Assembly: GCA_016931615.1 (NCBI GenBank)
Contig: JAFGEL010000038.1
Span: 1 to 64,000, forward strand
Direction of reading: 5' to 3'
Length of the DNA: 64,000 nucleotides
Origin: Desulfuromonadales bacterium
GTDB lineage: Bacteria > Desulfobacterota > Desulfuromonadia > Desulfuromonadales > Geopsychrobacteraceae
Positions 10,513 to 34,697 of the stretch are shown here, piece after piece (the stretch's first letter is position 1; every line of letters begins with the position of its first letter). Under the pieces are notes generated by a model. It saw nothing but the letters and a program-made list of their open reading frames with translations, was not told where the DNA came from and searched no databases. The position numbers were made by a program, and so were the translations under genes.

Positions 10513-10617
10513 ATTTTGATGTATGTCAATTTATTTCTTACGCGCGACCTGTAAACTGACAAATATCGGTAGATCGTTACACATTTAAACGAACTCACAT
10601 AGTCAAAGGATCACATC

Positions 10618-17299: not shown

Positions 17300-20200
17300 T
17301 TACCTGATGCTCACATATTCTGAGTTAATACCTATATTCCCGCGGGCAAGCGAGAGTGCCAACCGAGCGATACCGACGGCTGCTTTCGCTTCCGTTACGA
17401 GACTTTGTGTTTTTAAAAAATCGGCCTCAGAATCCAGAACACTGGTTATGGTGCCTTTGCCTACTTCGTACTTGAGTTGCTCAATCCGCTGTGCTTCCTG
17501 GGCCTGGATAACCATCCGACGCGTCACTTCAAGTTTTGCCCGGGAACTTTCAAGATCGCTGTGTGCAATTTCAAACTCTTCATGAACCGCAATCCGTTTG
17601 TGCTTAAGCTGCTGTTTAATGGTTTCCTGATTGGCCTTGGACTGAATCAGCTTTCCGTTTCTGAAATGGCCGTCCAGAAGCGGAATTGTAAGGCGAATAC
17701 CGACGGTCACATCATCCTCCCACTTCTCACCGGCCGCTTGCATAGCTGAGTCCATGGGATCCTCAGCACCATAAATCCCGGCACTCCCCCAAAGTTCGAG
17801 TTCTGGCCTAAACCGCAGCTGAGCTTCTTTAATCAGGAACTGAGATGCTTTCAGATCTTCTTCGAGAGCGGCAACATCCGCACGTTGACCTGGATCAACC
17901 TTGATCTTCGTCGAAAAAGGAGAAGACAACAGTTTATGCTCCCCGCTTATCGGCAAGAGCGGCGGCAAGCTGCCTTCGAGACCCAGCAAACCAGCCAGAA
18001 CAGCTCTTCGTTTACGCTTTACGCTGCGATAATCAACCAGAACATTTTCAATTTCCGCCAGTTGAATTTGAATCTTCAGGCGATCAATTTGTGGGACCTT
18101 CCCCTGTGAAACCAACAGATCAATCTTTTGCGCCAGGGAGTAAAGACTTTTGCGAGAGGCTTCTGCAGCCTGGACCAAATCATCGAGTGCCAGTATCGTG
18201 AGATACTCCCTTGCGACAGAAAAAATAATTTCCTGCTTACGCCTTTGCTCCAGCAAGAGGCTTGCATTTTTATTTGCTGTTGCGGCCTCCAGAGCCGCCC
18301 GGGTCCGTCCGAAGTCGGTCAATAAAAACCGGGCGGATAATATGGTTTGAAAAATTTGCCTGTCAAATATCTGGCCGGCGGGAGCTAAACCGGGAACAAC
18401 AGCATGACTCTCTTTCGAACTGCTGATCCCACTTTCCAGGTTGACTTGCAGTTTTCTGGGAGCGGCGGCGACAAGGATCTTTCCTTTATGCAAAGTCGTC
18501 TGTGCCTGAACCTGGCCAAGGTCCGGATTGTTTTGAAGCGCAATTTCCACGGCTTTTTCGAATGAAAGCTTTGCCGGCAGTTGCATAGCACGAACCTGGT
18601 GTCCTGAAAATAAAAAGAAAATCAGAAGCAGTCCCATGCTGACAGGAATTTTTTTCCTTTTATTCAAAAGAGAGCCCAAACAGTCTGTTAAGGAATCCAG
18701 CGCCGAATAAATAACCGGGATAATAACCAGAGTGACGACTGTACCGAACAACAGCCCGGATGCCGCGGCAATGCCGAGAGGACTCATCCTCTCCAGTCCA
18801 ACAGCCATCTCAAAAATCAACGGTGAAAACCCGACAACTGTTGACACGGCGGTCATGAGAATCGGTCGTAAGCGCAACTGTACAGATTGCAATATAGCCT
18901 CATCCTTTGATATCCCCGAACGCCGTGCAGCAAGGATAAAGTCCAGCATCAGGATGGCATTATTGACGATAGTTCCGCCCAGGAGAATAATACCCATCAG
19001 AGCGGGCATACAGAAAGGTTTATTGAAGGCCAGCAAGCCCCACATCCCTCCCGCGGCGGCCAGGGGAATCGACAGCATGATCGTGAACGGGTGAATGAAG
19101 GACCTGAACAGAGCCAGCAACAGAATGAACAGCAGCACCAGACCGATGATCAGTGCCTGACCCAGTTCCTGTCCACTTTCATTCATATCACGTAGTGTGC
19201 CGGCTATTTCCATCGTATATCCGGCCGGAAGCGGGAGATCTTTCAGGCGATGCTGGGATTGCCGAGTCACTTCCGCGATGGTCAAAACCTGATTGCCTCC
19301 GGTAATATCGATTGTATTGGTGAGATTTTCTCGCGTCAGAAATGGTTGATCACGGTTTTCTTTTATACTGGCCAGGTTGTTCAAAGGCACCGGCCCATAA
19401 GAGGTCGGTACAGAAACCTGTTCCAATTGGGAGATATTCTGAACCTGGTCAGACTGATAGCGCACCCGGATAGGAATATCGAGATAGTTCTCCAAGGCCA
19501 TAGTGGATGCAACTCGTCCCTGCACGGCTGTACGTAAAACAGTCGCCACTGATGCCGGTGAAGTCGCATAAAGGCTGGCTAACTCATGGTCCACTACAAC
19601 TTTCTGTTCAGCTTTGTCCTGGTACCATGTTCGTCGCAAATCCTGCAATCCTGGTGTACCGCGTAGCAGCCGCAGAGTCTTATCCGCCAAACGATCTAAA
19701 ACCCGGGTGTCGGGTCCGGAAAGAACGATATTGAAAGGAGCCTTGGTTGTAGAGACCGGTGTCGCCCCGTACTCTGAGACGCGAAAAGTTCTCAAACCTT
19801 CGATCAAAGGTAACTGTTGTCGCCAGTCCTCCTCAATCTGCCAGATAGACCGGGATCGTTCCGTGCGGGGCGACAGGTGGACAGTTATTTTGGCCGCCTG
19901 GGCGGTCCCGCCACCACCGCCGAAGCTGATGGCATCAATCTCTGATCCTACTACCGCTGAAAGCGATTCAACCTCCGGGGTCCTCTGCAGCATGCTTTCC
20001 ACACGGGTCAAAACCGCTTCGACCCGTTGGGGTTGCAAAGATGAATTGGTATCAAATTCAACGATCGCAATTCCAGTGTCCATGGGCGGCATCTGTTCTC
20101 CACCTAACAATGGTTTCACAACCCGCATGGTGAAGATCAAAAAAATAACCGTGATGCCGAGAAACAGGATTCTATGGTTGATTGCGGTCTTGACCAAACC

Positions 20201-21766
20201 GAGGTAGAGCTTAGTCAACAGGTCCAGCGTGGTCGTCATCGGTTTGGTGAGAAGCTGATAGATCTTCCGCTCCCGTCGAGCTTTACCCAACAAACGGGAT
20301 GCCATGATGGGAATAACCGATAAAGAAATCAACAGTGATGCCACCAGCGTAGAGATAATCATAATATTGAGCGGTTGCATGATTTGACCGGTGTATCCCC
20401 CGGCAAAGAGCACCGGAATCAACACGATCACGGTTGTCAGCATCCCGGCGGTAATCGGGGCGGCAACTTGTTGTGCTCCTAGAACTGCTGCATCGCGACT
20501 GGATAATGAAGAATCGTCGGCATAATGGCGGTAGATATTTTCCAGCACCACGACCGAGGCATCGACTACCATACCAACCGCGACGATAAGCCCCGACAGA
20601 GTGACCATATTGAGTGTATAGGGGCTGAACCAGAGAACGACCATCGCCGACAGGAAAGACAAAGGGATGGCGACACTGACGACACCGGCTGCGCGGAGAT
20701 TGGAAAGAAACGCTAATATCACCAGTACCGTCAGGACGACCGCCTGCCAGAGAGAAGACCGCATGCCGCTGACATTGAGATCGATCAGAGGCTGTTGATC
20801 ATCTGTAATGGCGAAATGGATATCGGGATACCTCTTTTGAATGTCGGGAAGAACCTGCTTTAAATTGTTTATCGCTGCGACAGTTTGCCCTTTCTCAGGA
20901 CGCAGCACATTTACGGCAACAGCATTTATACCATTGCCGTGATAGATACTGCGTCGATCGGCGGTCCCCAGCTCGACGGAGGCTATATTGCGCAGGTAAA
21001 CCCTTCCCCCTGCGGGTGTCTTCAGGGGAAGGTTGCTTAAAGAATCCAGCCGGTCAAACTCACCGGCAATACGGATCAAATGCTCTCTATCAGTCGTATA
21101 AACCGTACCGCCGGGAGCACTGACATTCTGCAGAGCCAAAAGACTGATCACATCGCTAAGCGTCAGGTTATAGGCGATTAAGGCATCGCGATCAACGTGC
21201 ACCTCGACCTCATGACGATACCCGCCAAACACCTGGACGTCTCCGACTCCGGAAATGGACAGCAGCCGGTCTTTCAAGTCGTTTTCAGCCAACAGTCTGA
21301 TGTCCGCCAAACTCTTAAGACTCTCCGCGCCCGGGCTCAAGGCGAGTGTGACCAAAGGACGGGTAGCGTCGGTAATCCGATAGAGACCAGGTTCCGCGGT
21401 GTCTTGCGGTAAATCGCCACGGATCCTGGAGATCGCATTCTGGACATCAATAACCGCTTCACCGATGGACTTTGCGTAAACAAACTCGACATTGATCGAT
21501 GAGACCTCATCCCGTGAGGTGGAGACGATTCTCTTGAGGCCGGACAGGCTGACCAATTCTTTTTCGATGATCCTGGTAATGTTATTCGTCACATCGCGAG
21601 CCGCGGCGCCCGGTTGGGCGGTCACAATGACGACCTGGGGCGGAACTGTGTCTGGAAACAGGTCGGTCGGAACCCGCCAGAACGCAAAACTTCCCAGGCT
21701 GATGATGACCAGGGCCAAGGCAATGATGATGTAAGTATTTTTAAGGGAAAATTCAGGCAGGCTCAT
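17300..21766 (-). CDS. RND efflux permease fused to a TolC-type outer-membrane factor
   Basis: A single uninterrupted frame of 1488 codons. Residues 1 to about 1030 are an RND permease: N-terminal TM1, two periplasmic porter halves, and the TM4 motif [14 protein letters not shown] with one relay Asp. From Met1044 (18637) there is a signal-peptide-like stretch (MGLLLIFFLFSG, ending QVRA) followed by about 425 residues of TolC-like outer-membrane factor (SFEKAVEIALQNNPDLGQVQAQ; coiled coils; LKYEVGKGTITSVLDSEADF). The KRKK before the hydrophobic stretch fits an internal signal sequence after a cytoplasmic RND C-terminus. No good ribosome site precedes Met1044. It overlaps the upstream MFP gene by 4 bases. 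Confidence 0.88.
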   Translation of the reverse strand: MSLPEFSLKNTYIIIALALVIISLGSFAFWRVPTDLFPDTVPPQVVIVTAQPGAAARDVTNNITRIIEKELVSLSGLKRIVSTSRDEVSSINVEFVYAKSIGEAVIDVQNAISRIRGDLPQDTAEPGLYRITDATRPLVTLALSPGAESLKSLADIRLLAENDLKDRLLSISGVGDVQVFGGYRHEVEVHVDRDALIAYNLTLSDVISLLALQNVSAPGGTVYTTDREHLIRIAGEFDRLDSLSNLPLKTPAGGRVYLRNIASVELGTADRRSIYHGNGINAVAVNVLRPEKGQTVAAINNLKQVLPDIQKRYPDIHFAITDDQQPLIDLNVSGMRSSLWQAVVLTVLVILAFLSNLRAAGVVSVAIPLSFLSAMVVLWFSPYTLNMVTLSGLIVAVGMVVDASVVVLENIYRHYADDSSLSSRDAAVLGAQQVAAPITAGMLTTVIVLIPVLFAGGYTGQIMQPLNIMIISTLVASLLISLSVIPIMASRLLGKARRERKIYQLLTKPMTTTLDLLTKLYLGLVKTAINHRILFLGITVIFLIFTMRVVKPLLGGEQMPPMDTGIAIVEFDTNSSLQPQRVEAVLTRVESMLQRTPEVESLSAVVGSEIDAISFGGGGGTAQAAKITVHLSPRTERSRSIWQIEEDWRQQLPLIEGLRTFRVSEYGATPVSTTKAPFNIVLSGPDTRVLDRLADKTLRLLRGTPGLQDLRRTWYQDKAEQKVVVDHELASLYATSPASVATVLRTAVQGRVASTMALENYLDIPIRVRYQSDQVQNISQLEQVSVPTSYGPVPLNNLASIKENRDQPFLTRENLTNTIDITGGNQVLTIAEVTRQSQHRLKDLPLPAGYTMEIAGTLRDMNESGQELGQALIIGLVLLFILLLALFRSFIHPFTIMLSIPLAAAGGMWGLLAFNKPFCMPALMGIILLGGTIVNNAILMLDFILAARRSGISKDEAILQSVQLRLRPILMTAVSTVVGFSPLIFEMAVGLERMSPLGIAAASGLLFGTVVTLVIIPVIYSALDSLTDCLGSLLNKRKKIPVSMGLLLIFFLFSGHQVRAMQLPAKLSFEKAVEIALQNNPDLGQVQAQTTLHKGKILVAAAPRKLQVNLESGISSSKESHAVVPGLAPAGQIFDRQIFQTILSARFLLTDFGRTRAALEAATANKNASLLLEQRRKQEIIFSVAREYLTILALDDLVQAAEASRKSLYSLAQKIDLLVSQGKVPQIDRLKIQIQLAEIENVLVDYRSVKRKRRAVLAGLLGLEGSLPPLLPISGEHKLLSSPFSTKIKVDPGQRADVAALEEDLKASQFLIKEAQLRFRPELELWGSAGIYGAEDPMDSAMQAAGEKWEDDVTVGIRLTIPLLDGHFRNGKLIQSKANQETIKQQLKHKRIAVHEEFEIAHSDLESSRAKLEVTRRMVIQAQEAQRIEQLKYEVGKGTITSVLDSEADFLKTQSLVTEAKAAVGIARLALSLARGNIGINSEYVSIR

Positions 21767-23066: not shown

Positions 23067-23101
23067 TTTTTACTTGATTCAGATCAACTGGTCTCTGAAT
23101 C

Positions 23102-24730
23102 TCAGTTCCCGGCCATGATCGCAGCCACGTCCGCTTCGACCTCGCCGATCGGCTTGATGTCGAAGTTCTCGACCAACACTTTTGCCACATTGGGTGACAG
23201 GAACGCAGGGAGTGTCGGTCCCAGGCGGATGTGTTTGACACCGAGAGCCAGCAGCGCCAGCAACACCACGACCGCTTTCTGCTCGTACCAGGCGATATCG
23301 TAGGAGATCGGCAGGTCGTTGATATCATCCAGCTCGAAAACTTCTTTCAGCTTCAGCGCAATGTAGGCCAGCGAATAGGAGTCGTTGCACTGACCGGCAT
23401 CGAGAACCCGCGGAATACCGCCAATATCGCCGAGGTCGAGCTTGTTGTAGCGATACTTGGCGCAACCTGCGGTGAGGATAACACTGTCGTTCGGCAACGC
23501 TTCGGCAACCTCTGTGTAGTAGTTACGAGTGGTGTGACGGCCGTCGCACCCGGCCATGACCACGAAACGCTTGATCGCGCCGGTCTTGACCGCATCGACC
23601 ACTTTGTCGGCCAGGGCCATCACCTGGGCATGGGCAAATCCACCAACGATCTCACCGGTTTCGATTTCAACCGGAGGTGCGCAGGTTTTGGCCTGTTCGA
23701 TAATTGCAGAGAAATCCTTGCTGCCGCCTTCAGGACGCTCAGGAACATGTGTAGCGCCCGGCCAGCCGGCCATGCCGGTGGTGTAGATGCGGTCACGGTA
23801 GGCGTCCTTGACCGGAGTGATGCAGTTAGTGGTCATCAGGATCGGCCCGTTGAAAGAGGCAAACTCCTTGTCCTGCTGCCACCAGGCGTTACCGTAGTTG
23901 CCGACGAAATGATCATATTTCTTGAACGCCGGGTAATAGTTGGCCGGCAGCATCTCACTGTGGGTGTAAACATCCACGCCGGTGCCTTCGGTTTGTTTGA
24001 GCAGCTCTTCCATATCCTTGAGATCGTGACCGGAGATCAGAATTCCGGGGTTGCCACGCACACCGAGGTTGACCTTGGTAATTTCCGGATTGCCGTAGGT
24101 CGAGGTGTTGGCCTCGTCGAGCAGGGCCATCGCTGTCACAGCAACCTCACCGCATTTCAGAACCTGGCCGGTCATCTCGTCAACGCTCAGATCCTGGGTG
24201 GTCGATGCCAAGGCGGAGACCATATACTCGTAGACTTCAGGTTTCTCGAAACCAAGCATCGCCGCATGGTCAGTGTAGGCGGCCATCCCTTTCAGACCAT
24301 AGATCAGGAGTTCGCGCAGGGAACGCACATCTTCGTTCGGCTGGGACAACACCCCGACTTCAGCCGCCTTGGCGGCGTATTCGGATTCATCTCCGTTCCA
24401 GTTGACGACATCGGCATCGCTGCTGAAACCGATCGCCAGTTTCAGAGCATCACGCTTGGCGATAGTCGCCTTGATCAGTTCCTTGATGCGTTGATTGTCA
24501 AAGTTCGCATTGGTGATAGTCGCGAACAGGGCCTGGCAGATGAACAACCCAACCGAATTGTCCAACTTGCCCTGCTGCTTAGCTTCTTCAGCCACCAAGG
24601 CCAGGCCTTTCAGGTTGTGAACCAGCAGATCCTGCAGGTTCGCGGTGTCCTCCTTCTTGCCACAGACTCCAGCGACGGTACAGCCGGTTCCTTTAGCTGT
24701 TTCCTGACATTGAAAACAAAACATGCTCAT
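23102..24730 (-). CDS. hcp: hybrid cluster protein (hydroxylamine reductase), class I
   Basis: A 542-residue iron-sulfur enzyme carrying a 4Fe cluster and the hybrid 4Fe-2O-2S cluster. It reduces hydroxylamine in vitro and is tied to NO detoxification and protein S-nitrosylation. The N-terminal cysteines are spaced CX2CX8CX5C (Cys5, Cys8, Cys17, Cys23), as in class I proteins of strict anaerobes. Hybrid-cluster ligands are visible in [46 protein letters not shown] and [11 protein letters not shown]. No hcr reductase gene is linked. Two FNR/HcpR-like boxes lie upstream, shared with a divergent four-gene cassette. Confidence 0.97.
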
Positions 24731-24840
24731 GAAATGTGCTCCTTTCGTTCCGGGTTATAGGTGATGACTTTAAATGTAACCTCAATTCGTGAGGGTTCAA
24801 CTTTGTGGGCAAAACATCCCATAATTTCAAAGAGAAAAAA

Positions 24841-24854
24841 TTGATCTAGGTCAA
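24841..24854. promoter_or_regulatory. FNR/HcpR-type box 1
   Basis: TTGATCTAGGTCAA, a TTGAY-N4-RTCAA dyad of the CRP/FNR superfamily, 111 bases from the hcp start and just upstream of the divergent cassette. Confidence 0.7.
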
Positions 24855-24885
24855 AAATAAAAAATATAACTTTTTTTGTTAGATT

Positions 24886-24899
24886 TTGACTTAGATCAA
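24886..24899. promoter_or_regulatory. FNR/HcpR-type box 2
   Basis: TTGACTTAGATCAA, the mirror-like counterpart of the box at 24841, 45 bases away and 58 bases before the ATG of the cassette's first gene. HcpR proteins bind TTGAC-N4-GTCAA-like sites upstream of hcp in deltaproteobacteria, so both promoters are probably NO- or redox-controlled. Confidence 0.7.
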
Positions 24900-24956
24900 T
24901 TAATTCTTTTCTTTGTCGGTTTAGACTCACAACATAAACAGAAAGGAGAACGAATC

Positions 24957-26189
24957 ATGACAACAGCAACACTCCATAAAGATATGACCGTCAAAGATGT
25001 ATTAAATAACTGGCCAGAGACCCTGGATGTTTTTATCGCCAACGGGTTTGAAAACTTCCGCGAACAAAAACAGCGTGACGCAGTCGCCGCCTACCTGAAA
25101 CTGGAGCGTGCGGCCAAAACCAAAAACTACGACCTCGATAACTTCATGGGCTTGCTTCAGGAAAAAATCAATGAACAGCTCAACCTGGCTGATGTCACTA
25201 TGAAGCAAACCCGAAAAAAAGATTCCGATGTCAATGTCGCCGGTTTACTTCCCTGCCCGGTTCGACTGCCTTTGCTGGAAGGTTTCGACAACTTCATTGA
25301 AAATTACACGGCACAGACAGGTCATACTGTCAGTTACAAGCTGGAAGCAGCCTCGGTAGGATCCGACTGGATTGAAGCGAACCTGAAAGGGATCGACAAT
25401 GTCGATGAATTGCCTGATGTTTTTCTTTCTGCAGGGTTTGAAACCTTCTTCGATAAAAAAACGATCGGCAACTTTAAGGACCAGGGAGTTTTTACTGATA
25501 TCACCGGAGATCAGGTCAATGCTGCTTTTGCCGGTGTCGACATCAAGGATCCGAAGCGGGATTACTCCATTATCGCTGCGGTCCCTGCGGTCTTCATGGT
25601 CAACCATGATGTTCTTGGCGATCTGCCGGTACCACGACGCTGGTCCGACCTGCTCAAGCCGGAATATGAGCAACGGGTCGCCTTGCCGGTCGGAGACTTT
25701 GACCTGTTCAACGCAATTCTGCTCGCGATTCACAAAGAGCATGGCGAAGACGGCGTCAAAAAGCTGGGGCGCTGCATGTTAAAATCGATGCATCCCTCAC
25801 AGATGGTCAAGAATGCCAAGCGCGTGGCTGAGGAGAAACCGCTGGTCACCATCATGCCCTATTTCTTCACAAAGATGGCGCGCACAGTTCAAAGTCTGGA
25901 AATCGTCTGGCCGCAGGATGGGGCTGTAGTCAGCCCGATTTTCATGCTGACAAAAAAAGCAAGCATGGACAAGGTCAAGCCGATCGCCGAGTTCCTCTCC
26001 AGTAAGCTTGTTGGAGAGATTCTGGCCCATAAAGGGTTGTTCCCCTCTCTTCATCCCGAGGTGGACAATCAGCTCAATTCTGACCACCCGTGGAAGTGGG
26101 TCGGCTGGGACTATATCTACAATAATGACATCGGTGAGCTGATCCACCGGACGAATGATATTTTTGAAACCTCCATGAATGCGGTGTAA
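24957..26189 (+). CDS. DUF1858 domain plus solute-binding-like protein, no signal peptide
   Basis: About 410 residues. Residues 10-60 match DUF1858 (MTVKDVLNNWPETLDVFIANGFENF). From about residue 95 the protein resembles a type 2 periplasmic solute-binding protein of the Fe3+/molybdate kind (GLLPCPVRLPLLEGF, LPDVFLSAGFETFF, AVPAVFMVNHDVL, WSDLLKPEYEQRVALP). It has neither signal peptide nor lipobox, so it should stay in the cytoplasm. The start is ATG at 24957, with AAAGGAG upstream. It opens a four-gene unit divergent from hcp, 9 bases before a GTPase gene. A cytosolic metal or anion carrier or sensor is plausible; the ligand is unknown. Confidence 0.82.
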   Translation: MTTATLHKDMTVKDVLNNWPETLDVFIANGFENFREQKQRDAVAAYLKLERAAKTKNYDLDNFMGLLQEKINEQLNLADVTMKQTRKKDSDVNVAGLLPCPVRLPLLEGFDNFIENYTAQTGHTVSYKLEAASVGSDWIEANLKGIDNVDELPDVFLSAGFETFFDKKTIGNFKDQGVFTDITGDQVNAAFAGVDIKDPKRDYSIIAAVPAVFMVNHDVLGDLPVPRRWSDLLKPEYEQRVALPVGDFDLFNAILLAIHKEHGEDGVKKLGRCMLKSMHPSQMVKNAKRVAEEKPLVTIMPYFFTKMARTVQSLEIVWPQDGAVVSPIFMLTKKASMDKVKPIAEFLSSKLVGEILAHKGLFPSLHPEVDNQLNSDHPWKWVGWDYIYNNDIGELIHRTNDIFETSMNAV

Positions 26190-26198
26190 GGATAAAAC

Positions 26199-26882
26199 AT
26201 GAGATTTCTGACTGTGTCCGGGCCACCATCGTCCGGAAAAACTTCGGTCATCCTTCGGGTCATTGAAGCTCTTCAGGCCCGCCAACGAAAAATCGGCGTA
26301 GTCAAATTCGACTGTTTGCTGACCGATGACGATAAACGCTATGCTCAGAAAGGGGTGCTGGTCAAGAAAGGACTCTCCGGGGCACTGTGTCCGGATCACT
26401 ACTTCGTCAGCAACATTGAATCCTGCGTTACCTGGGGACATGAAAACGGCTGCGAGTATCTGATCAGCGAAAGCGCCGGGCTCTGCAACCGCTGCTCACC
26501 GCACATCAACGAGATTACCGCAGTCTGCGTCATCGACAACTTGAGCGGCATCAACACCCCGCGCAAAATCGGTCCAATGCTCAAATCGGCGGATATCGTG
26601 GTGATCACCAAGGGGGATATCGTCTCACAGGCCGAGCGTGAAGTCTTCGCCTCACGAGTCAAGCAGGTCAATCCCGGGGCAGTCATCATGCATGTCAACG
26701 GAATCACCGGCCAGGGTGCCTTTGAGTTGACCAGCCTGTTCGAAGAAGCTTCGGATATTGAAACCCTGAAAGGCAAAACCTTACGTTTTTCCATGCCGTC
26801 GGCGCTCTGCTCTTACTGTTTGGGGGAAACCCGGATCGGTGAAGAGCACCAAACCGGCAATATCAGAAAGATGGATATTTAG
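26199..26882 (+). CDS. HypB/UreG-like P-loop GTPase
   Basis: A 227-residue nucleotide-binding protein. Walker A is GPPSSGKTS at residues 8-16, a switch-like SESAGLCNRCSPH segment lies near residue 90, and TKGD fits the base-recognition motif. The closest families are the SIMIBI GTPases HypB, UreG and CobW, which load metal into enzymes. Two cysteine pairs (CNRC in the middle and CSYC near the C-terminus) could bind metal or a cluster. It lies between the solute-binding-like gene and the ABC ATPase gene (gap of 2 bases), so it is clearly part of the same unit. Its client may be Hcp, which is inference. Confidence 0.8.
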   Translation: MRFLTVSGPPSSGKTSVILRVIEALQARQRKIGVVKFDCLLTDDDKRYAQKGVLVKKGLSGALCPDHYFVSNIESCVTWGHENGCEYLISESAGLCNRCSPHINEITAVCVIDNLSGINTPRKIGPMLKSADIVVITKGDIVSQAEREVFASRVKQVNPGAVIMHVNGITGQGAFELTSLFEEASDIETLKGKTLRFSMPSALCSYCLGETRIGEEHQTGNIRKMDI

Positions 26883-26884
26883 AA

Positions 26885-27883
26885 ATGAAAGACACAGCTA
26901 TTTTTCACCAGTCACTGGCCCAGATCCTGGAAGACCATCCATATATCGAGGATTTCCTCAACTCTTTCGGTTTGGAGATCAAGCCGACCGGTGACAGTTT
27001 GCAGCATTTTTTAGACAACCTTAATCCAGATGACCTGGAAGACCTGGGCGTCAGCAACGATCAGTTGAGATCTAATTTGAATGATTTTCTCGATGGCATG
27101 CTAGCGATTCAGCATCCGCTGGACAAAGTTGAATCATTGACAATCATTGGCGGACATAACAAATCAGGAGAAGCGGAAAACCTCGAATTTACCCTTCGGC
27201 CTGGTGAAGTGGTCTGCATTGTCGGTCCGACAGGTTCGGGTAAAAGCCGCCTGCTGGCCGATATCGAATGGGTCGCACAGGGGGATACGCCAACCGGGCG
27301 AAAAATCATGATCAACGGTCAGATGCCCGATGGAAAATGGCGTTTTTCCACCGAGCACAAGCTGGTCGCCCAATTGTCCCAAAACATGAACTTTGTCATG
27401 GATCTTTCCGCAGAGGAATTCATCCGGATGCACGCTGAAAGCCGTCTCATTCCTGATCCCGAACGGAAAGTTCGACAAATTCTGGAGCAAGCCAACGAAT
27501 TGGCCGGAGAACAATTTACTCCCGACACACCAGTCACCTCACTAAGTGGAGGCCAGTCACGGGCGCTTATGATCGCCGACATGGCATTTTTAAGCAAATC
27601 CCCGATCGCTTTGATTGATGAAATCGAAAATGCAGGCATTGATCGCAAGAAAGCGCTGGAGTTACTGGTACGTGAGGAAAAAATTATCCTCATGGCCACC
27701 CATGATCCGATCCTGGCGCTCATGGGGGACCGCAGACTGGTGATCAAGAATGGAGGCATCGCCAGAATCATTGAATCCAGTGACATGGAGCGGAAAAATC
27801 TCCAGCAGTTGGAAGAATTAGATAATAAACTACTCGCCCTGAGAAACCGAATCCGGTTGGGCGATACCCTTGAACAGATTTAA
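26885..27883 (+). CDS. ABC-type ATPase with N-terminal DUF1858-like domain, no permease partner
   Basis: A 332-residue protein. The first 80 residues resemble DUF1858 (LAQILEDHPYIEDFLNSFGLEI), as in the first gene of the unit. Residues about 85-300 form a complete ABC ATPase: Walker A GPTGSGKS, signature LSGGQSRALMIAD, Walker B PIALIDEIENAG and switch His in MATHDP. A C-terminal helical tail follows. No transmembrane permease is encoded in this unit or nearby, so the ATPase probably acts in the cytoplasm, as in SufC or other non-transport ABC proteins. Confidence 0.83.
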   Translation: MKDTAIFHQSLAQILEDHPYIEDFLNSFGLEIKPTGDSLQHFLDNLNPDDLEDLGVSNDQLRSNLNDFLDGMLAIQHPLDKVESLTIIGGHNKSGEAENLEFTLRPGEVVCIVGPTGSGKSRLLADIEWVAQGDTPTGRKIMINGQMPDGKWRFSTEHKLVAQLSQNMNFVMDLSAEEFIRMHAESRLIPDPERKVRQILEQANELAGEQFTPDTPVTSLSGGQSRALMIADMAFLSKSPIALIDEIENAGIDRKKALELLVREEKIILMATHDPILALMGDRRLVIKNGGIARIIESSDMERKNLQQLEELDNKLLALRNRIRLGDTLEQI

Positions 27884-27893
27884 GGAGAAGAAT

Positions 27894-28136
27894 ATGCATG
27901 ACGGATGTAATGGTCGTTTTCTCAATGGCGCTCAAATTGTCAACAAATTAAGGCAGATGGGTTTCAGTGGCTATACGATGCCGATTCCTGTTGAGATGAA
28001 ATGTGAAGGTTGTGAAGATGTGTTTACCATGCAGACAATGGAAGATCGCTGCGACAATTGTGGCATGGTCTATGGCGTAACCCCCTGCCATGCTACTGAT
28101 GCGACCAGTATTCAGCCGGCTGGTATTGATTATTGA
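27894..28136 (+). CDS. small zinc-ribbon protein
   Basis: An 80-residue protein. A double CXXC (CEGC and CDNC) about 17 residues apart makes a zinc ribbon or rubredoxin-like knuckle, with further Cys residues near the N-terminus (HDGC) and in VTPCHA. The ribosome site AAGGAGA overlaps the ABC ATPase stop codon and the ATG is at 27894, so translation is coupled to it. It closes the four-gene cassette. No family is recognised; a metal chaperone or adaptor would fit the neighbours. Confidence 0.75.
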   Translation: MHDGCNGRFLNGAQIVNKLRQMGFSGYTMPIPVEMKCEGCEDVFTMQTMEDRCDNCGMVYGVTPCHATDATSIQPAGIDY

Positions 28137-28222: not shown

Positions 28223-28657
28223 TTGACACCACTGACAGAAAAAGATTTGTTTCATCGGATTCTCGAAGGAACTCCAGATGGTGTCCTTTTTGCTGACCAA
28301 GAAGGTATCATCCGCTACTGGAATGAAGGAGCTCGCAGGATTTTTGGCTATTCCAAAGAAGAAGCGCTTGGCGCGTCTCTTGATCTCATTATTCCAGAGA
28401 AACTGCGAGATCGGCATTGGTCTGGATATCACCATGTCATGGAAACCGGTGTCAGTCGCTACAGTACAGAACTGCTGTTAGTCCCTGCCTTGCATAAGGA
28501 CGGACATCAATTATCCTGTGAGTTTTCAATCGTGATGATTCATGATGATTCGGGAAGAATTATCGGGTTTGCCTCGATCATGCGGGATGTCACTGAGCGT
28601 TGGGAAAAAGAAAAAGAACTGAGGAAGCAGTTAGCCGCTTGTAAGAAAACACAATAA
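28223..28657 (+). CDS. stand-alone PAS domain protein
   Basis: A 144-residue protein made of a single PAS domain (ILEGTPDGVLFADQEGIIRYWNEGARRIFGYS) ending in the PAC motif GFASIMRDVTERWEKEKEL. There is no output domain, so it would act by protein contact. Start TTG at 28223 with GGGAGGG upstream. It follows the hcp-divergent cassette by 86 bases on the same strand and could belong to it or be separate. Confidence 0.85.
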   Translation: MTPLTEKDLFHRILEGTPDGVLFADQEGIIRYWNEGARRIFGYSKEEALGASLDLIIPEKLRDRHWSGYHHVMETGVSRYSTELLLVPALHKDGHQLSCEFSIVMIHDDSGRIIGFASIMRDVTERWEKEKELRKQLAACKKTQ

Positions 28658-28913: not shown

Positions 28914-29315
28914 TCATTCCCAACGTCCATCGCGACGACGGCGCAATTCGATATCCATCGTTTCAATACGCCCCTGGTTATTGACGAACAGGCTCAACAG
29001 CCAGCTCACCGAACTGATGATCAGTGACCCGAGCAGCGCGGCACCGAAGCCGTCCACCATCAGACCGCCGATGAGGCCGGAGGTCATCAACAGCAGCATG
29101 GCGTTGATGACAAAGGTGAACAATCCCAGGGTCAGAACATTGATCGGCAGGGTCAAGATCAACAGGATGGGACGAAACAGCGCGTTGAGAATTCCCAGCG
29201 TAAGAGCTGCAAACAGCGCGGTAACAAACCCGTCGACGCGAATGCCGTCAACCACATAGGCAGCGGCCATGACGGCGACAGCCAGTGCCAGCCACTTGAA
29301 AAGCAAACCCTTCAC
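28914..29315 (-). CDS. phage-holin-family (YvlD-like) membrane protein
   Basis: A 133-residue protein with four hydrophobic helices and the family motif LGILNALFRPILLILTLPINVLTLGLFTFVINA. This is the PF04020-type family found in many bacteria without phage context; its role is unclear. It overlaps the DUF169 gene by 4 bases and is the last gene of the leftward operon that begins with the chelatase. Confidence 0.88.
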   Translation of the reverse strand: MKGLLFKWLALAVAVMAAAYVVDGIRVDGFVTALFAALTLGILNALFRPILLILTLPINVLTLGLFTFVINAMLLLMTSGLIGGLMVDGFGAALLGSLIISSVSWLLSLFVNNQGRIETMDIELRRRRDGRWE

Positions 29316-30145
29316 GCTGGGTCCCCTCCTTTGTCCGCAGCCAAGGCATTCCAGGTATGGCGCTGCAGAAAGGAACCCTCAACCTGCCCTTCCATAGTCA
29401 AAAACATCTGCCAGGGAAGCGCCATACTCATCACATGGGCACCAAACTGTTGGCGCAGGTACAACCGGGCGGAAAGGTCCATAGGCCCGGCTACCGCCCG
29501 AGGCCGCTCGCTTTCTGCCTCGCGGTAGGAATAGAGCCCAATCGCCTGGCAACCGGCGGCAAAGGGGAAAATCACATTGTCATTGCCTGGGAAACTGTAA
29601 TTGGCCAGCACCCCGATGGCGGAAAACTGATCGGGATCACTGAAAAACACCACGCTGACCGGTGTTTCGACATCAGGATCAACCAATGACAACGGTTTAT
29701 AGATCACGTATTGCGTCGGAATATCCCGAATCGGCAGCTCATGAATGAACTCCTCCACCGCCTGCGGATCTTTCAGGTAGCGCTCTCCTTCAAGAAACTC
29801 CTCGATAAATTCGCCGCGAGCTTTGCCCTGAAGTTTCGCAGCGACCGCCTCGCCCTGTTCCGTACCGGCATTTCCACTTGAAAGAAACCGGCAAAAGCAG
29901 TCAACACCACCCGGAAAATTAACATATTGGTCACCGAATCCGACCCCGGTTCCGCCGCCGTGACAACCAAAAGTCTCGCGGCTGCAGGCGGCGACCTGTC
30001 CCTTGGCCGCTGCGGCCAGCAGCCACATGACACAGCCCCAGGCCTGTTCCTTGAACATCTTGGCCTGCGGCGGTTTTTCATCACTCCAGAGGATGGCGAC
30101 GGGCTGATGGGGTAATCTGATCGCTGCGGCAATTTGACTCTGCAT
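29312..30145 (-). CDS. DUF169 family protein
   Basis: About 277 residues matching DUF169: an N-terminal HQPVAILWSDEKPPQA, Cys-rich motifs WGCVMWLLAAAAKGQVAACSRETFGCHGG, and a late FPFAAGCQAIGLYSY. Conserved cysteines suggest a metal or cluster site. Such genes often occur in methanogens and anaerobes with one-carbon or metal-enzyme genes. The ATG at 30145 has TGGAGG upstream. Function is not known. Confidence 0.85.
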   Translation of the reverse strand: MQSQIAAAIRLPHQPVAILWSDEKPPQAKMFKEQAWGCVMWLLAAAAKGQVAACSRETFGCHGGGTGVGFGDQYVNFPGGVDCFCRFLSSGNAGTEQGEAVAAKLQGKARGEFIEEFLEGERYLKDPQAVEEFIHELPIRDIPTQYVIYKPLSLVDPDVETPVSVVFFSDPDQFSAIGVLANYSFPGNDNVIFPFAAGCQAIGLYSYREAESERPRAVAGPMDLSARLYLRQQFGAHVMSMALPWQMFLTMEGQVEGSFLQRHTWNALAADKGGDPA

Positions 30146-30194
30146 GGGCACCTCCAATCAGGTTTTGGGACTCAGGCCATGACTGACATCCTGT

Positions 30195-30884
30195 TCATAA
30201 GGGATTTTTCAAATACCGATAATAGCTGTCGTACTGGTAAATAGCCGCCAGTGGGTTGTGAGCCAGCAAGCGGTCTTTGGACGCCAGAACCGTATTATAG
30301 GCTTCGGCATACTTGAAAAACAGCGCATCATGGCCGACACAGACGCCGAACAGCACATTCAGGTCGGATTTGTGTTCATTGGCCGTCAACGCCTGCAGGA
30401 TCGGGTTGCACATCGCCTCAAAAGTGGTCGGATCGATCTGCTGTTCGCGCAGCAGGCCGATCTCTTCTTTCGAAATCGCTCCCGCTTTGCACATCACCGA
30501 GATCGTCTCAAAGCCATTATTGGTAAAAATTTCATGGATAATTTCAGCCTCTTTGCGCATGCCGATACAGAAGATCAGACAGATCCGTTTGAATTTCATC
30601 TTTTTGGCAAACTCAATGGTTTCCTGAATGCGCGGTTTCACCGGGCGAATATTCGCGTATCCCTTATCCTTATCTCCGTAGCCTTCACCTTCCTGAATCG
30701 ATGCCTGGCGCACCATCTCCATGACGCCTGGATCTTTGAGGATTTCCAGGGTTTTCCTGATGACCTCGGGCGACCGGGTCGAAGGACAGTTACTCGGAGC
30801 TTTGCCTTTTTCCTGGCGGCAGATGCGTTGCGGAACCTCTACCGGGCAGACGGCACAGGTTGGTAATGGAATTTCTTTGGACAT
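30195..30884 (-). CDS. DUF1847 family metal-binding-like protein
   Basis: A 229-residue protein. It begins with conserved cysteines (CAVCPVEVPQRICRQEKGKAPSNCP) and carries the DUF1847 core ICLIFCIGMRKEAEIIHEIFTNNGFETISVMCKAGAIS and FGVCVGHDALFFKYAEA. The repeated Cys/His pattern points to a bound metal or iron-sulfur cluster. Known only from anaerobes and without an assigned role. It lies between the LarA homologue (126 bases) and DUF169 (49 bases), in the same direction. Confidence 0.85.
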   Translation of the reverse strand: MSKEIPLPTCAVCPVEVPQRICRQEKGKAPSNCPSTRSPEVIRKTLEILKDPGVMEMVRQASIQEGEGYGDKDKGYANIRPVKPRIQETIEFAKKMKFKRICLIFCIGMRKEAEIIHEIFTNNGFETISVMCKAGAISKEEIGLLREQQIDPTTFEAMCNPILQALTANEHKSDLNVLFGVCVGHDALFFKYAEAYNTVLASKDRLLAHNPLAAIYQYDSYYRYLKNPL

Positions 30885-31016
30885 GAAAAGTCTCCCTTAG
30901 TATTTGTTGAAAAACGGCACACAAACCTGCCGTATTTTGAAAGCCAGACCGGGTTTACGCGTCCCTGAAAATGGAATCGTCAACCGCAATTGGAGCGCAG
31001 TCGATACCAGAAATCT

Positions 31017-32291
31017 TTAGGTCACCCTCAGGATCAGCATTGGACCATCCGGCACAATGGCCCAGCGGGCATCGTTCCCAAAGCGCTCAAGAAGTTCATT
31101 GATCGCTGTTTCCACGTTTTCAACCGCACGGAAATGAAATTGCTCCAGCGTTGCCGCGTCAAGGCCATCGGTATACAACCAGATCTCATTCTTCAGCCGG
31201 ACCTGGTAGGTTTCCTGCGCGCACCATTGGTCAAGCACGAAAAATTCCTTGTTCATAATCTTATCGATAAACGCCTGCGGGCTGGTGGCATGATTGAAAA
31301 CTTCACGGTATTCGTCGCTGCCGAACCCTTCGGGGCATTCGCTGGCCATCAGAATCACCCCGCCTTCCCGGGTCGCTCCCATCACCCCCGACAGACCTTT
31401 CGAACTCTGGTAAAGATTACAGTCCAAGGGCGCACCCGAGTTGGTCGTCACGACAAAATCAAGCGGCCGATCAAGCGCCTTCATACAGTGCCGGGAAAGA
31501 AATTCCACCCCCTCAAGATGCGCCTTGACCGGATCACCACAGAAAATCCCGGTGACCTGCTTATCGGTATCCAGCGTGACATTGACAACAAAATCAGCCC
31601 CGGCCTTGGCCATGATTTCGAGTCCGGCCTCGTGAAACGGGTTACCGTCAAGGACTCCGTAAACGGTTTTAGGATGGGCCACCATCTCCGGCCCATGCAT
31701 GAATTCAAGGGTCTGCGCGGAGGAGATTCCCGGCAGAATTGATTTTCTCCCGCCGGAAAACCCGGCCCACATGTGCGGCTCGATAAATCCGGTCAGAATT
31801 TTAAGATCGGCCTGCACATAGTGCTTGTTGACATAGGCTGGCACACCATCACCGATCTCACCGACCAGAACCATGTCCTCATGATTTTTGGAAAAGTGAT
31901 TGATGACGCGATAGTTTTCGGCAATCTCCCGACCGACCAGCTGAACCAGTTCCTCACCTTCGTTGGGCCGATGAATTCCGGTGGCGATCAGAATCGTCAC
32001 CTGCTCAGCACCCAGCCCGGCGGTTTCGAGTTGCCGCAGGATTTCCGGCAGCAACAGGCGGTTCGGCACCGGCCGGGTGATATCGCTGATGACGATGACC
32101 GCATCCTTACGGCCCCGGGCAATCTTCTGCAATGGCTCAGATTCAATCGGCTGCAGCAATGATTGTTGAAGAACCGCCTGTGGATTTTCCAGGGTCGCAA
32201 CCTGTTCAGGATAAAGCACCCCCTGAAAATTTGGCGTTTCGGGATAATTTATGACCAGGCCGTCCGTTCCGTATTTCAATTTGACCTGCAT
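31017..32291 (-). CDS. larA: LarA-family nickel-pincer racemase/epimerase
   Basis: A 424-residue homologue of the nickel-dependent lactate racemase. The residues known in Lactobacillus plantarum LarA are found at matching spacing: Arg73, His107 (in GIHRPN), His173, Lys183 (in SGGRKSILPG, pincer attachment), His199 (nickel ligand) and Gln295/Lys298 (in LYQSSKG). So the cofactor and hydride-transfer chemistry should be intact. The substrate may be lactate or another 2-hydroxy acid, since the family is broad. The cofactor genes larB, larC and larE are not in the window. Confidence 0.92.
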   Translation of the reverse strand: MQVKLKYGTDGLVINYPETPNFQGVLYPEQVATLENPQAVLQQSLLQPIESEPLQKIARGRKDAVIVISDITRPVPNRLLLPEILRQLETAGLGAEQVTILIATGIHRPNEGEELVQLVGREIAENYRVINHFSKNHEDMVLVGEIGDGVPAYVNKHYVQADLKILTGFIEPHMWAGFSGGRKSILPGISSAQTLEFMHGPEMVAHPKTVYGVLDGNPFHEAGLEIMAKAGADFVVNVTLDTDKQVTGIFCGDPVKAHLEGVEFLSRHCMKALDRPLDFVVTTNSGAPLDCNLYQSSKGLSGVMGATREGGVILMASECPEGFGSDEYREVFNHATSPQAFIDKIMNKEFFVLDQWCAQETYQVRLKNEIWLYTDGLDAATLEQFHFRAVENVETAINELLERFGNDARWAIVPDGPMLILRVT

Positions 32292-32325
32292 AGGAATCCT
32301 CCTTCAGCAGAAAATCGTGATCCAA

Positions 32326-32664
32326 TCAGCTCCCTCGGGGCGGCTCATAACGTTCATAATAACCGATCAGGGCGCCGCTCTTCGAGCGGACCGCACGCAT
32401 ATAAATCCGGTATTTTTTATTGTCGGTAATCAGTTCTTCGTCCAGCCCCTGCTCCATGCGCTTTACAATCTCGATCATCTGTTGACATGATTGCTCATTG
32501 TGACAGTCGAGCAGCGAGCTGCCGAGCAATGCACGCCCTCCGCTGTAGAAAGCTTCAGCGGCTTTATTAAGATAGATCACTTTATGGTTCAGATCTGCAA
32601 CCAGTGTGGGATTTTTCAGACTGTCAAGCAGGTCAAGTGCCATTTCAAAAGATATAGTGTTCAC
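32326..32664 (-). CDS. small PAS domain protein
   Basis: A 112-residue single PAS domain (LDSLKNPTLVADLNHKVIYLNKAAEAFY) with a Cys-containing segment, LLDCHNEQSCQQM, resembling the PAS_10 type linked to DUF438/hemerythrin proteins. It is 3 bases after the VWA gene and 34 bases before larA, hence in the same operon. No output domain is present. Confidence 0.82.
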   Translation of the reverse strand: MNTISFEMALDLLDSLKNPTLVADLNHKVIYLNKAAEAFYSGGRALLGSSLLDCHNEQSCQQMIEIVKRMEQGLDEELITDNKKYRIYMRAVRSKSGALIGYYERYEPPRGS

Positions 32665-32667
32665 TTA

Positions 32668-33480
32668 CTATTCCATTTCATCTTTATTGTTTTTTTCTTT
32701 TTCGTTCCAGATCAGGTCCAACAGTTGTCTGCCGGTCAGCTCCCTCACGTGTCGATAGCGCCCTTCCAGTGCCCCGGCAAGACGTCGCAGCAGGGCGCTG
32801 CCCCGCGCTCCTGCGTGTGTATCTACAATCATAGTCCGTAACTGCTCGCCGCGCAAAAGGCGCGCCAGGGTCAGCAGTTCGCTGGCGACATCAACACCGG
32901 AAGATAACGGCACATTGGCATCGCCATCCGAAACGACAATCACCAGTGGGACAATGCCCGGCTGTTTCTGTCGAGCGATTCTTACCAGCTGACCGGCCTT
33001 GGCTAATCCGTCCGCAAGCGGGGTCGCACCGCCAACAGCCAGTTGCCGCAAGCGCTGACGAGCAAGCAGAATACTGGTCGTCGGTGGCAACAACAGCTTT
33101 GCCCGGTGCCCCCTGAAGGCGATCAGGGCAACCTGGTCACGTTGCTGATAAGCAGCGGTCAACCACCCGAGAACAGCCCCCTTCGCGGCCTTCATTCTGG
33201 CAACAGTCCCTTCCCCCATGGAATCGGAAGCATCAACGACGAAGACAAACAGGGATTTGTGTTTTTTGCGGAAAACTTTTTGTCTCAGATCCGCCATTCG
33301 CAGCTGGTTCAGAGAAAAACCGGCCCCGTGACGTAACAGCCCGGTGACCAGCGTCGCGGCATAATCGAGCCTGAAATCCCTGCCCTGGCGTCCGAGCGGC
33401 ACACTGCGCAGATGACGCCCTGAAGCAGCTGAAAATCTCGAGCGACGGGACTTCCCCCCCTGAGGGTGGGTCAACGTCAA
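32668..33480 (-). CDS. chlD: VWA (ChlD) domain of Mg/Co-chelatase, made by -1 frameshift
   Basis: The von Willebrand A domain of an ATP-dependent chelatase subunit D. The metal-ion-dependent adhesion motif DASDSMG is visible with later Thr/Asp residues (GGATPLADGL, VVSDGDAN). The only in-frame start near the N-terminus is a TTG at 33480 without a ribosome site, yet the frame stays open, with sensible residues (SERLINLADEQCLAPLDLAG), back to a nine-A run at 33543-33551 inside the upstream ChlI-like gene. A -1 slip there joins the two into a 676-residue ChlI-ChlD protein, as described for chlD genes elsewhere. Confidence 0.85.
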   Translation of the reverse strand: MTLTHPQGGKSRRSRFSAASGRHLRSVPLGRQGRDFRLDYAATLVTGLLRHGAGFSLNQLRMADLRQKVFRKKHKSLFVFVVDASDSMGEGTVARMKAAKGAVLGWLTAAYQQRDQVALIAFRGHRAKLLLPPTTSILLARQRLRQLAVGGATPLADGLAKAGQLVRIARQKQPGIVPLVIVVSDGDANVPLSSGVDVASELLTLARLLRGEQLRTMIVDTHAGARGSALLRRLAGALEGRYRHVRELTGRQLLDLIWNEKEKNNKDEME

Positions 33481-33527
33481 ACCCGCGAGATCGAGAGGGG
33501 CAAGACATTGCTCATCGGCCAGATTGA

Positions 33528-34697
33528 TCAGGCGTTCTGAAGTTTTTTTTTAAACGTTTCAAACAGCATACTGCCGGCTGCCGCGGAACCGGGGAACTCA
33601 ATGTCATGACAATAATCATCGGCTTCAAGCTCATGATCGCTGTCCGTGCCCGGCAAGGTTGCGTAGCCTTCCAATCCGGCTTGCAGCGTTTTTTCCACCT
33701 GTGCGGCATCCATCAGCAGACCACCGGGCAGACGGTGGGGAAAGACCAACCAGGCGAGGTGACGGATATCGACGAGGTCCAGCCGTGACTTATCCATAAG
33801 AGCCGCGTAAGCCCTGGCCGCTTTAAGCAGGATAATGTCGGCACGATGCCCCTGAACCTTGAAGGTCAAGGCCAGACGGGTGACCAGGTCAAGCGCTTCC
33901 TGCGGGACATCGATGGTAGTCAAGTGCTGCCGCGCAGACACAATCTGGCGGGAAAGAAAATCTTCCTCCGCCTTGTGCTCAAGACAAAAAGCCCGGGGAT
34001 TCTGTTCATAGCTCAGACGCTCGGCGACCAGCTGCCGGCGCTGGCTTGGCTCGTCCAGGCCTTCAACCGTGACCACCAGGCCGAAACGATCAAGAAATTG
34101 GGGTCGCAACTCTCCTTCCTCAGGATTCATCGTGCCGATCAGCATGAAGCGGGACGGATAGGTCACGCAAAACCCTTCCCGCTCGACGCGATTCACTCCC
34201 GAAGCGGCGGCGTCAAGCAACAGGTCGACAAGATGATCCTCAAGCAGATTGACCTCATCGACGTAAAGAATACCCCGGTTGGCTGCAGCCAGCAGGCCCG
34301 GCTCAAACTGCCTTTGGCCGGTTTTCAAGGTATTTTCAAGCTGCAGGCTGCCGACCACCCGGTCTTCTGTCGCTCCCAGCGGCAGCTCAACCAAAGGTGT
34401 CGCTATCCGCTCTACATCCAGTGCCTCGCCACGGTTGAAACGCTCAAGACAGTCATCGTGCATATGCTCAGGTTGATCGGCAGGACAATGATAAGGACAG
34501 CCGCGAACCACCTCAATTTCGGGTAGCAATGCGGCCAGGGCCCGCGCCGCCGTCGATTTGGCCGTGCCCTTATGGCCGCGAATCAGCACCCCACCGATCG
34601 TCGGGTCGACGGCATTCAGCAGCAACGCCGTTTTCATGGCGTCCTGACCGACAATAGCGCTGAAAGGGTACGGAACAGAATTCATCAACACATCCAT
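33528..34697 (-). CDS. chlI: ChlI-like AAA+ ATPase of Mg/Co-chelatase
   Basis: A 389-residue AAA+ protein. Walker A is GHKGTAKST, followed by the family's Cys pair GCPYHC, Walker B ILYVDEVNLLEDHLVDLLLD, sensor 1 GTMNPEEGELRPQFLDRF and a C-terminal arginine-finger and lid region. Such subunits power metal insertion (Mg or Co) into tetrapyrroles together with ChlD and a CobN/BchH-type subunit, which is not in the window. It is the first gene of a leftward operon with PAS, larA, DUF1847, DUF169 and a membrane protein. The stop lies 15 bases past the slippery A run. Confidence 0.9.
   Translation of the reverse strand: MDVLMNSVPYPFSAIVGQDAMKTALLLNAVDPTIGGVLIRGHKGTAKSTAARALAALLPEIEVVRGCPYHCPADQPEHMHDDCLERFNRGEALDVERIATPLVELPLGATEDRVVGSLQLENTLKTGQRQFEPGLLAAANRGILYVDEVNLLEDHLVDLLLDAAASGVNRVEREGFCVTYPSRFMLIGTMNPEEGELRPQFLDRFGLVVTVEGLDEPSQRRQLVAERLSYEQNPRAFCLEHKAEEDFLSRQIVSARQHLTTIDVPQEALDLVTRLALTFKVQGHRADIILLKAARAYAALMDKSRLDLVDIRHLAWLVFPHRLPGGLLMDAAQVEKTLQAGLEGYATLPGTDSDHELEADDYCHDIEFPGSAAAGSMLFETFKKKLQNA
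33541..33554 (-). promoter_or_regulatory. programmed -1 frameshift site (nine A)
   Basis: On the minus strand TTTAAAAAAAAACT places three Lys codons before CTT CAG AAC GCC TGA. Slipping back one base at the A run reads ACT TCA GAA CGC and enters the VWA frame. Termination gives a 389-residue ChlI-like product; slipping gives 676 residues. Confidence 0.75.

Follow-up and report, generated by a model that had tools for sequence, protein, structure and literature searches.

We analyzed a cassette of four genes that lies opposite hcp, the gene of the hybrid cluster protein (Hcp), in a 64,000-nucleotide stretch of contig JAFGEL010000038.1 (assembly GCA_016931615.1) from a Desulfuromonadales bacterium; this whole stretch is referred to as the window. 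The four rightward genes (24957-28136) are tightly packed, with intergenic gaps of 9, 2 and 10 bases, and face the divergent hcp gene, whose product was found to be a full hydroxylamine reductase/Hcp. Hcp is a main anaerobic nitric-oxide scavenger, an enzyme that destroys nitric oxide. A preliminary description, made from the sequence of the window, had placed four such genes opposite hcp and listed their products as a solute-binding protein (SBP)-like protein without a signal peptide, a UreG/HypB-like GTPase, an ATP-binding cassette (ABC) ATPase with a DUF1858-like domain and a zinc-ribbon protein. Domain searches revealed that all four genes were present and that the list was accurate (Table 1). 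The arrangement is not a matter of chance, since the gene order was kept in related genomes and the cassette was duplicated jointly with hcp in this genome.

Table 1. Features of the cassette locus in the window.
Feature	Position	Strand	Length (aa)	Basis or remark
hcp, hybrid cluster protein, clade A	23102-24730	-		TIGR01703/PRK05290 scores far over cut-off; Hcp tree
HcpR/FNR-type palindrome TTGATCTAGGTCAA	24841-24854			perfect TTGAY-N4-RTCAA core
HcpR/FNR-type palindrome TTGACTTAGATCAA	24886-24899			perfect TTGAY-N4-RTCAA core
SBP-like protein	24957-26189	+	410	DUF1858 (residues 7-64) and ferric-binding-protein-type fold (residues ~91-409)
G3E (UreG/HypB-like) GTPase	26199-26882	+	227	PF02492 CobW/HypB/UreG, E 7e-13
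Soluble ABC ATPase	26885-27883	+	332	PF00005, E 2e-17; DUF1858-like N-terminus (residues ~8-72)
Zinc-ribbon protein	27894-28136	+	80	HDGC ... CxxC ... CxxC ... TPCHA
PAS protein gene	28223-28657			3' of the cassette

The SBP-like protein matched DUF1858 (E 2e-14) and SBP_bac_6 (E 3e-82) in Pfam; its N-terminus scored over the PF08984 (DUF1858) cut-off and also matched the structure 2fi0. We found no signal peptide in the protein of the window, where DUF1858 occupies the N-terminus and the Kyte-Doolittle hydrophobicity of the first 45 residues was 0.31, in contrast to 3.03 for the first 60 residues of an HlyD control. Across 101 members of the family, the N-termini were weakly hydrophobic at most. 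The AlphaFold2 model (predicted local distance difference test score, pLDDT, 86.5) showed the type II periplasmic-binding fold; its best matches in the PDB were FbpA and FutA, with a Z-score of ~23 and a root mean square deviation of 3.5 over 288 residues. An alignment of 46 proteins, drawn from the nitric-oxide, nif and hyp classes (defined below), revealed that C100, H279, P301, F303 and F304 were invariant. C100 opens the first long helix of the ferric-binding-type fold, and P301-x-F303-F304 probably lies at the strand-helix junction expected for the iron-binding Tyr pair. Given the invariant C100 and H279 and the two Phe residues at the presumed Tyr position, the cleft of this cofactor-free model is likely a thiol and imidazole site rather than a tyrosine site. 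FbpA and FutA are the periplasmic SBPs of iron ABC importers, and the likeness to them consists of the fold of residues 91-409 and the SBP_bac_6 family. In contrast to them, the cassette protein appears to be cytosolic, carries DUF1858 in front and has the invariant Cys100 and His279, with Phe303-Phe304 at the presumed place of the tyrosines. The N-terminus also weakly matched TIGR03980 (E 4e-4, below the cut-off), the hybrid cluster protein-associated redox disulfide domain, which is kin to DUF1858. This entry shows that curators at NCBI had earlier tied DUF1858-type domains to hcp, and the likeness is that of a DUF1858-type domain with such a tie, whereas the DUF1858 of the window has no Cys pair and is joined to an SBP.

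The GTPase contained the P-loop GPPSSGKT and the guanine motif TKGD, both conserved, together with three cysteine motifs: CPDH (C64-H67), LCNRC (C96 and C99) and C204-x2-C207. The core residues and C64-P-D-H67 were invariant in 45 members, and C64, D66, H67, C96, C99, C204 and C207 were invariant across all cassette classes. In the alignment, CPDH coincided with the CPH nickel/zinc motif of UreG, and the stretch E91-S-A-G-L-C96-N-R-C99 coincided with the switch-II stretch of UreG/HypB; the GTPase thus carries a predicted metal site of the kind that precedes switch II in UreG (CPH) or HypB (CH). UreG (4hi0) and HypB (2hf8) were the top structures in the Foldseek search with the AlphaFold2 model (pLDDT 89.4), and the same two proteins ranked top by sequence. 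The protein scored 52 bits against the HypB equivalog TIGR00073, below the 121.2 bits needed. As had been claimed, the GTPase belongs with the UreG/HypB metal-insertion type. Compared with the HypA/HypB pair and UreG, which are metallochaperones with G3E GTPases, the overall likeness comprises the GTPase fold, TKGD (NKxD), CPDH (the CPH of UreG), the HypB-like switch-II cysteine and the presence of a small HypA-like zinc ribbon in the same cassette. The differences are an extra CxRC and a C-terminal CxxC, the association with an ABC ATPase and an SBP-like carrier, and the absence of hydrogenase or urease structural genes beside cassettes of the nitric-oxide class. The GTPase was the most conserved subunit (62-65% identity between the nitric-oxide and nif classes) and the SBP the most divergent (27-30%), which is the pattern expected if the SBP sets specificity.

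Alignment of the ABC ATPase revealed that its catalytic motifs, namely Walker A, the Q-loop, LSGGQ, Walker B and the H-loop, were all intact, with an unusual DEIENAG after Walker B. Its first 80 residues gave no DUF1858 match in Pfam, yet they matched the DUF1858 profile of the SBP in hhalign with a probability of 95% (E 4e-8), so that the DUF1858-like domain ascribed to this protein is seen only by profile-profile comparison. A domain of this type on both the SBP and the ATPase suggests that the two bind one another or share a docking partner. The match of the zinc-ribbon protein to HypA-like proteins was weak (E 0.012, below the cut-off), and its Cys pattern was conserved among homologues. 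It was present in 52 of the 80 nearest loci and confined to cassettes of the nitric-oxide class; none was detected beside the nif/mod type. The preliminary description had stated that the unit has no membrane subunit. In agreement with this, no conserved permease was found between or beside the genes in 75 loci, where 11 had any multi-transmembrane neighbor on the same strand, and these were of varied kinds. Without a permease, the ATPase must act on a soluble partner. SufC, the soluble ABC ATPase of SUF, likewise has no membrane partner and a metallocofactor setting. In contrast to SufC, the cassette ATPase has a DUF1858-like N-terminus and a GTPase partner, with no SufB or SufD recognized beside it; SufC was not among the best 25 of 161 NCBIfam matches, although a SufC-type match may stand further down, and no SufBD was recognized among the recurrent neighbors.

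GTPase relatives were surveyed in one genome per species, and at least 550 were found. Neighborhood fractions were taken from the 80 nearest loci and are thus valid for the near family, which included Desulfuromonadia, Deferribacteres, Bacillota, Bacteroidota, Spirochaetota, Fusobacteriota, Cloacimonadota and others. The SBP-GTPase-ABC order was nearly constant in these loci. In a sample of the phylum of the window, the cassette was patchy (20 of 395 genomes), which suggests that it spread horizontally; the GC content of the window copy did not stand out as a mark of mobile origin. A second full copy of hcp and cassette was found in the same genome (contig C82, locus L033). Misassembly was rejected as its origin in view of its position at the locus that is ancestral in relatives, with dnaB, hisG and rplI as neighbors, and of its 72-96% protein identity. 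It looks like a real paralogue.

The GTPase tree (129 rows) revealed several classes of cassette. The nitric-oxide clade contained 92 rows, including the window, with a support of 96 in the Shimodaira-Hasegawa-like approximate likelihood ratio test (SH-aLRT), and its neighbors were hcp, ygbA, flavodiiron and CRP/Rrf2 regulator genes. Two nif/mod clades (SH-aLRT 100 and 97) comprised 22 rows, of which 19 adjoined nifB, nifX, nifEN-type genes, nifH, nifV, modE-modABC or TIGR01616, a nitrogenase-associated ArsC-like protein (L200 was counted through its resemblance to L201). Two further clades each rest on four loci, and their exact placing is unsure because of long branches: the hypDE clade (SH-aLRT 99), which also held three rows without hyp neighbors, and an iscS/Rrf2/iron-sulfur (Fe-S) clade (SH-aLRT 100). 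The latter contained the GTPase and the ABC ATPase but no SBP, beside an Fe-S-domain protein, with an Rrf2 regulator and an IscS-type desulfurase adjacent in part of the loci. The preliminary description had likened the parts to a machine for metal or cluster delivery, and both the UreG/HypB-type GTPase and these paralogues near nif/mod, hypDE and iscS speak for the comparison. Since sister versions stand beside nitrogenase, hydrogenase-maturation and iron-sulfur genes, the cassette probably serves the delivery or repair of a metal center.

Several sister loci were noteworthy in their own right. The nif/mod-class cassettes were found in Desulfuromonadia (L034, L036-L039, L145, L148, L186, L187, L190-L194, L196, L197 and L200-L202) and seem to be undescribed; their SBP has an additional Cys (FCHA/FCET) in a binding-cleft helix. 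In one family of the phylum (L149-L152), the cassette adjoined hypD, hypE and an Nramp metal transporter gene. At L161:6335-10426 and L203:7146-11200, and partly at L159/L160, genes for Rrf2, the ABC ATPase, a CxRC-type GTPase, an IscS-type desulfurase and an Fe-S-domain protein were grouped, with no SBP gene among them, a possible undescribed Fe-S assembly module.

The preliminary description had also suggested that boxes were common to hcp and the cassette, and both palindromes of Table 1 lie between the two. Perfect TTGAY-N4-RTCAA sites occurred five times in the window versus 0.39 expected; the other three lie at 10516-10529, at 17885-17898 (inside a frame for a resistance-nodulation-division (RND) pump joined to a TolC-like protein) and at 23074-23087 (just downstream of hcp). 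The HcpR consensus of Geobacter and Desulfuromonas is wyTTGACnnnnGTCAArw (PMC1274295), and TTGAY-N4-RTCAA represents its core. We found 61 HcpR-type sites upstream of nitric-oxide-class cassettes versus 5.2 expected; for the nif/mod class, the number was 2 in 30. Perfect cores were present upstream in all tested loci of Desulfuromonadia, Deferribacteres and Acidobacteriota except L035, which had one mismatch, and loci with a divergent hcp usually carried two sites. The upstream regions of the cassette thus hold predicted sites of the HcpR regulon of the delta-proteobacterial type.

Co-occurrence with hcp in other genomes, on which the earlier proposal depended, was observed in several phyla and in differing geometries. 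By a strict rule, hcp lay within 10 kb of the cassette in 29 of the 80 nearest loci, and in 20 of 45 where both flanks were at least 4.5 kb long. Linked cassettes occurred in Desulfuromonadia, where hcp is divergent, as well as in Bacillota, Spirochaetota and Cloacimonadota; in Tepidibacter, Petrocella, Anaerophilus, Marinisporobacter, Cloacimonadota and one spirochaete, hcp followed the cassette in the same orientation. YgbA-family, flavodiiron, CRP or Rrf2 genes were close by at loci elsewhere. The Hcp tree comprised 78 proteins, of which 62 fell into clade A (SH-aLRT 100); these were all 30 that are linked to a cassette and 32 with a cassette elsewhere in the genome. Outside clade A were all 13 proteins from genomes without a nitric-oxide cassette and three others, namely two second Hcps of genome G009 and one Hcp of G259. 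Among 39 cassette genomes from many phyla without an adjacent hcp, 32 had a clade-A Hcp elsewhere, and these shared ~59-83% identity with the window Hcp, compared with 47-52% for the other type. As a separate observation, G009 carries two nearly identical clade-B hcp genes (G009:C2:722200-724200 and G009:C2:2935300-2937300; L208 and L209) in addition to a cassette-linked clade-A hcp, so that two Hcp types coexist.

Whole-genome samples from two classes revealed the same tendency. Among 146 Desulfuromonadia genomes, 19 had both the cassette and a clade-A Hcp, 6 the Hcp only, 7 the cassette only (two of them fragmented) and 114 neither; the association (19 of 26 cassette genomes) had an odds ratio of 52 and a Fisher p of 3e-13, or 1e-7 by genus. 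Of 196 genomes of a clostridial class, 53 had a clade-A-type Hcp, as judged by identity, and all 10 with the cassette fell within these 53 (p 1e-6; 0.004 among hcp holders). The link is one-way: the cassette implies a clade-A Hcp, and the reverse does not hold. An accessory or repair role fits this better than obligatory maturation. A rule by which absence of the cassette would dictate the Hcp type was rejected as an absolute, given how commonly clade-A Hcp occurs without it.

We consider it about an even bet (probability roughly 0.5) that the four genes encode soluble machinery, driven by nucleotides, for the delivery or rebuilding of a metal center under nitric-oxide stress, most likely, although not exclusively, for the Hcp encoded opposite. 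The cargo, its direction, the partner contacts, the client and the mechanism are what we infer from the features above. HcpR would turn on the cassette and hcp jointly. The cytosolic SBP-like protein would hold the cargo, which may be iron or an Fe-S-type species, through Cys100 and His279 instead of the tyrosines of ferric-binding proteins. The GTPase may relay metal through the cysteines of CPDH, CxRC and CxxC in a GTP-gated dimer. The ABC ATPase, which lacks a membrane partner, could dock through the DUF1858 that it has in common with the SBP and would spend ATP on opening either carrier or client. The role of the zinc-ribbon protein would be that of an adaptor, like the role of HypA towards HypB. 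HypA/HypB, UreG, CooC and SufC serve as models for the transfer, in which the GTPase and the ATPase would hand the cargo held by the SBP to an apo- or damaged metalloenzyme.

Several observations weigh against this reading. More than half of the nearest loci had no hcp nearby, and the actual partners at those loci may be ygbA or flavodiiron genes. A maturation factor would be required for its client or always accompany it, whereas clade-A Hcp occurred without the cassette in 43 of 53 clostridial and 6 of 25 Desulfuromonadia genomes; Hcp can therefore mature without it and is no obligate client. Conversely, the cassette genomes G259, G459, G473, G534 and G537 had no clade-A Hcp, and a few had another Hcp clade alone. 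Genomes are not independent, and the p-values given above, for which kinship was ignored, are too small. The fold of the SBP resembles ferric-binding proteins, yet a Phe pair probably stands at the place of the iron-binding tyrosines. Of the earlier suggestion that Hcp is the client, what stands is that clade-A Hcp, by co-occurrence, is the likeliest one; that it is the sole or obligate client does not.

General repair of nitric-oxide-damaged Fe-S centers is nearly as likely a task as service to clade-A Hcp. In its strict form, the cassette would repair iron or Fe-S centers and never touch Hcp, both would belong to the HcpR/NsrR regulon, and the clade match would reflect ecology and joint transfer. 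The cassettes of Deferribacteres and Bacteroidota with ygbA or flavodiiron genes and no hcp beside them, the Rrf2 or CRP regulators that adjoin many cassettes, the clade-A Hcps without a cassette and the deep branch that has iscS and an Fe-S protein as neighbors are consistent with it. We nevertheless hold the strict form to be rather unlikely, since one Hcp clade was preferred in the unlinked genomes and in both class samples, and co-regulation alone predicts no such preference.

It is highly improbable that the cassette is a remnant ABC importer whose ATPase works with a permease from another locus and whose SBP is exported by an unusual route. The SBP_bac_6 and ABC_tran domains and the mod permease genes adjoining some nif-class cassettes recall such a system. 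However, both the permease and the exported binding protein of an ABC importer are missing, as judged from the 75 loci and the SBP N-terminus; DUF1858 stands at the N-terminus of SBP and ATPase, the GTPase is the best-conserved subunit, a permease neighbor was not conserved and the modABC sets have their own ModC. Barely credible is a sensor or switch in which nitrite, iron or an iron-nitrosyl would be the small ligand of the SBP and the NTPases would signal to regulators such as the downstream PAS protein: that gene follows the cassette in the window, and many relatives have response-regulator genes after it (clusters c14 and c19), but the PAS gene is not conserved there, dedicated HcpR/Rrf2 regulators and boxes already explain control, and the metal-binding cysteines and nif/isc paralogues would be left unexplained.

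Returning to the metal-center machine, we more tentatively propose that cytosolic carrier-GTPase-ABC machines form a family across phyla, each paralogue of which would serve another complex metalloenzyme: nitrogenase and its iron-molybdenum cofactor (nif/mod), Hcp and the nitric-oxide response, hydrogenase maturation (hypDE) and, without a carrier, general Fe-S assembly (iscS). If true, this family would represent a new type of insertase for metallocofactors, ABC-powered and not engaged in transport, and a soluble ABC ATPase that acts jointly with a cytosolic binding protein and a UreG-type GTPase would broaden the known roles of ABC proteins and SBPs. The nif-cluster sister cassettes suggest that a factor in the handling of nitrogenase cofactor or molybdenum has been overlooked, which would be relevant to the transfer of nitrogen fixation into new hosts. 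We found no description of the cassette in the open full text of PMC, so that a report in supplements or subscription papers is possible; NCBIfam had no equivalog for the SBP, the GTPase or the ABC ATPase. The maturases CooC, CooJ and CooT of carbon monoxide dehydrogenase, a relative of Hcp, also insert metal in a nucleotide-driven way, whereas CooC is a MinD-type ATPase and that system has no ABC ATPase or SBP (PMC13056359, PMC6006190). No dedicated factor for building or maintaining the hybrid cluster of Hcp under nitric oxide turned up in the open literature, and a conserved, co-regulated accessory machine beside hcp provides a concrete gene set for studying how this cluster is built and kept.

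Two other features of the window were observed. At 17300-21766 on the reverse strand, a single frame of 1488 residues joined a complete RND pump (ACR_tran, residues 5-1023) to a TolC-like protein (OEP, residues 1295-1473), and the junction contained a signal-peptide-like stretch; this is either a rare fusion or the result of a lost stop codon. At 29312-34697, also on the reverse strand, genes for DUF169, DUF1847, a LarA-like lactate racemase, PAS, VWA and Mg-chelatase-type AAA proteins stood in a row. LarA-like lactate racemases usually depend on a nickel pincer, and this row may be another metal-linked cluster.

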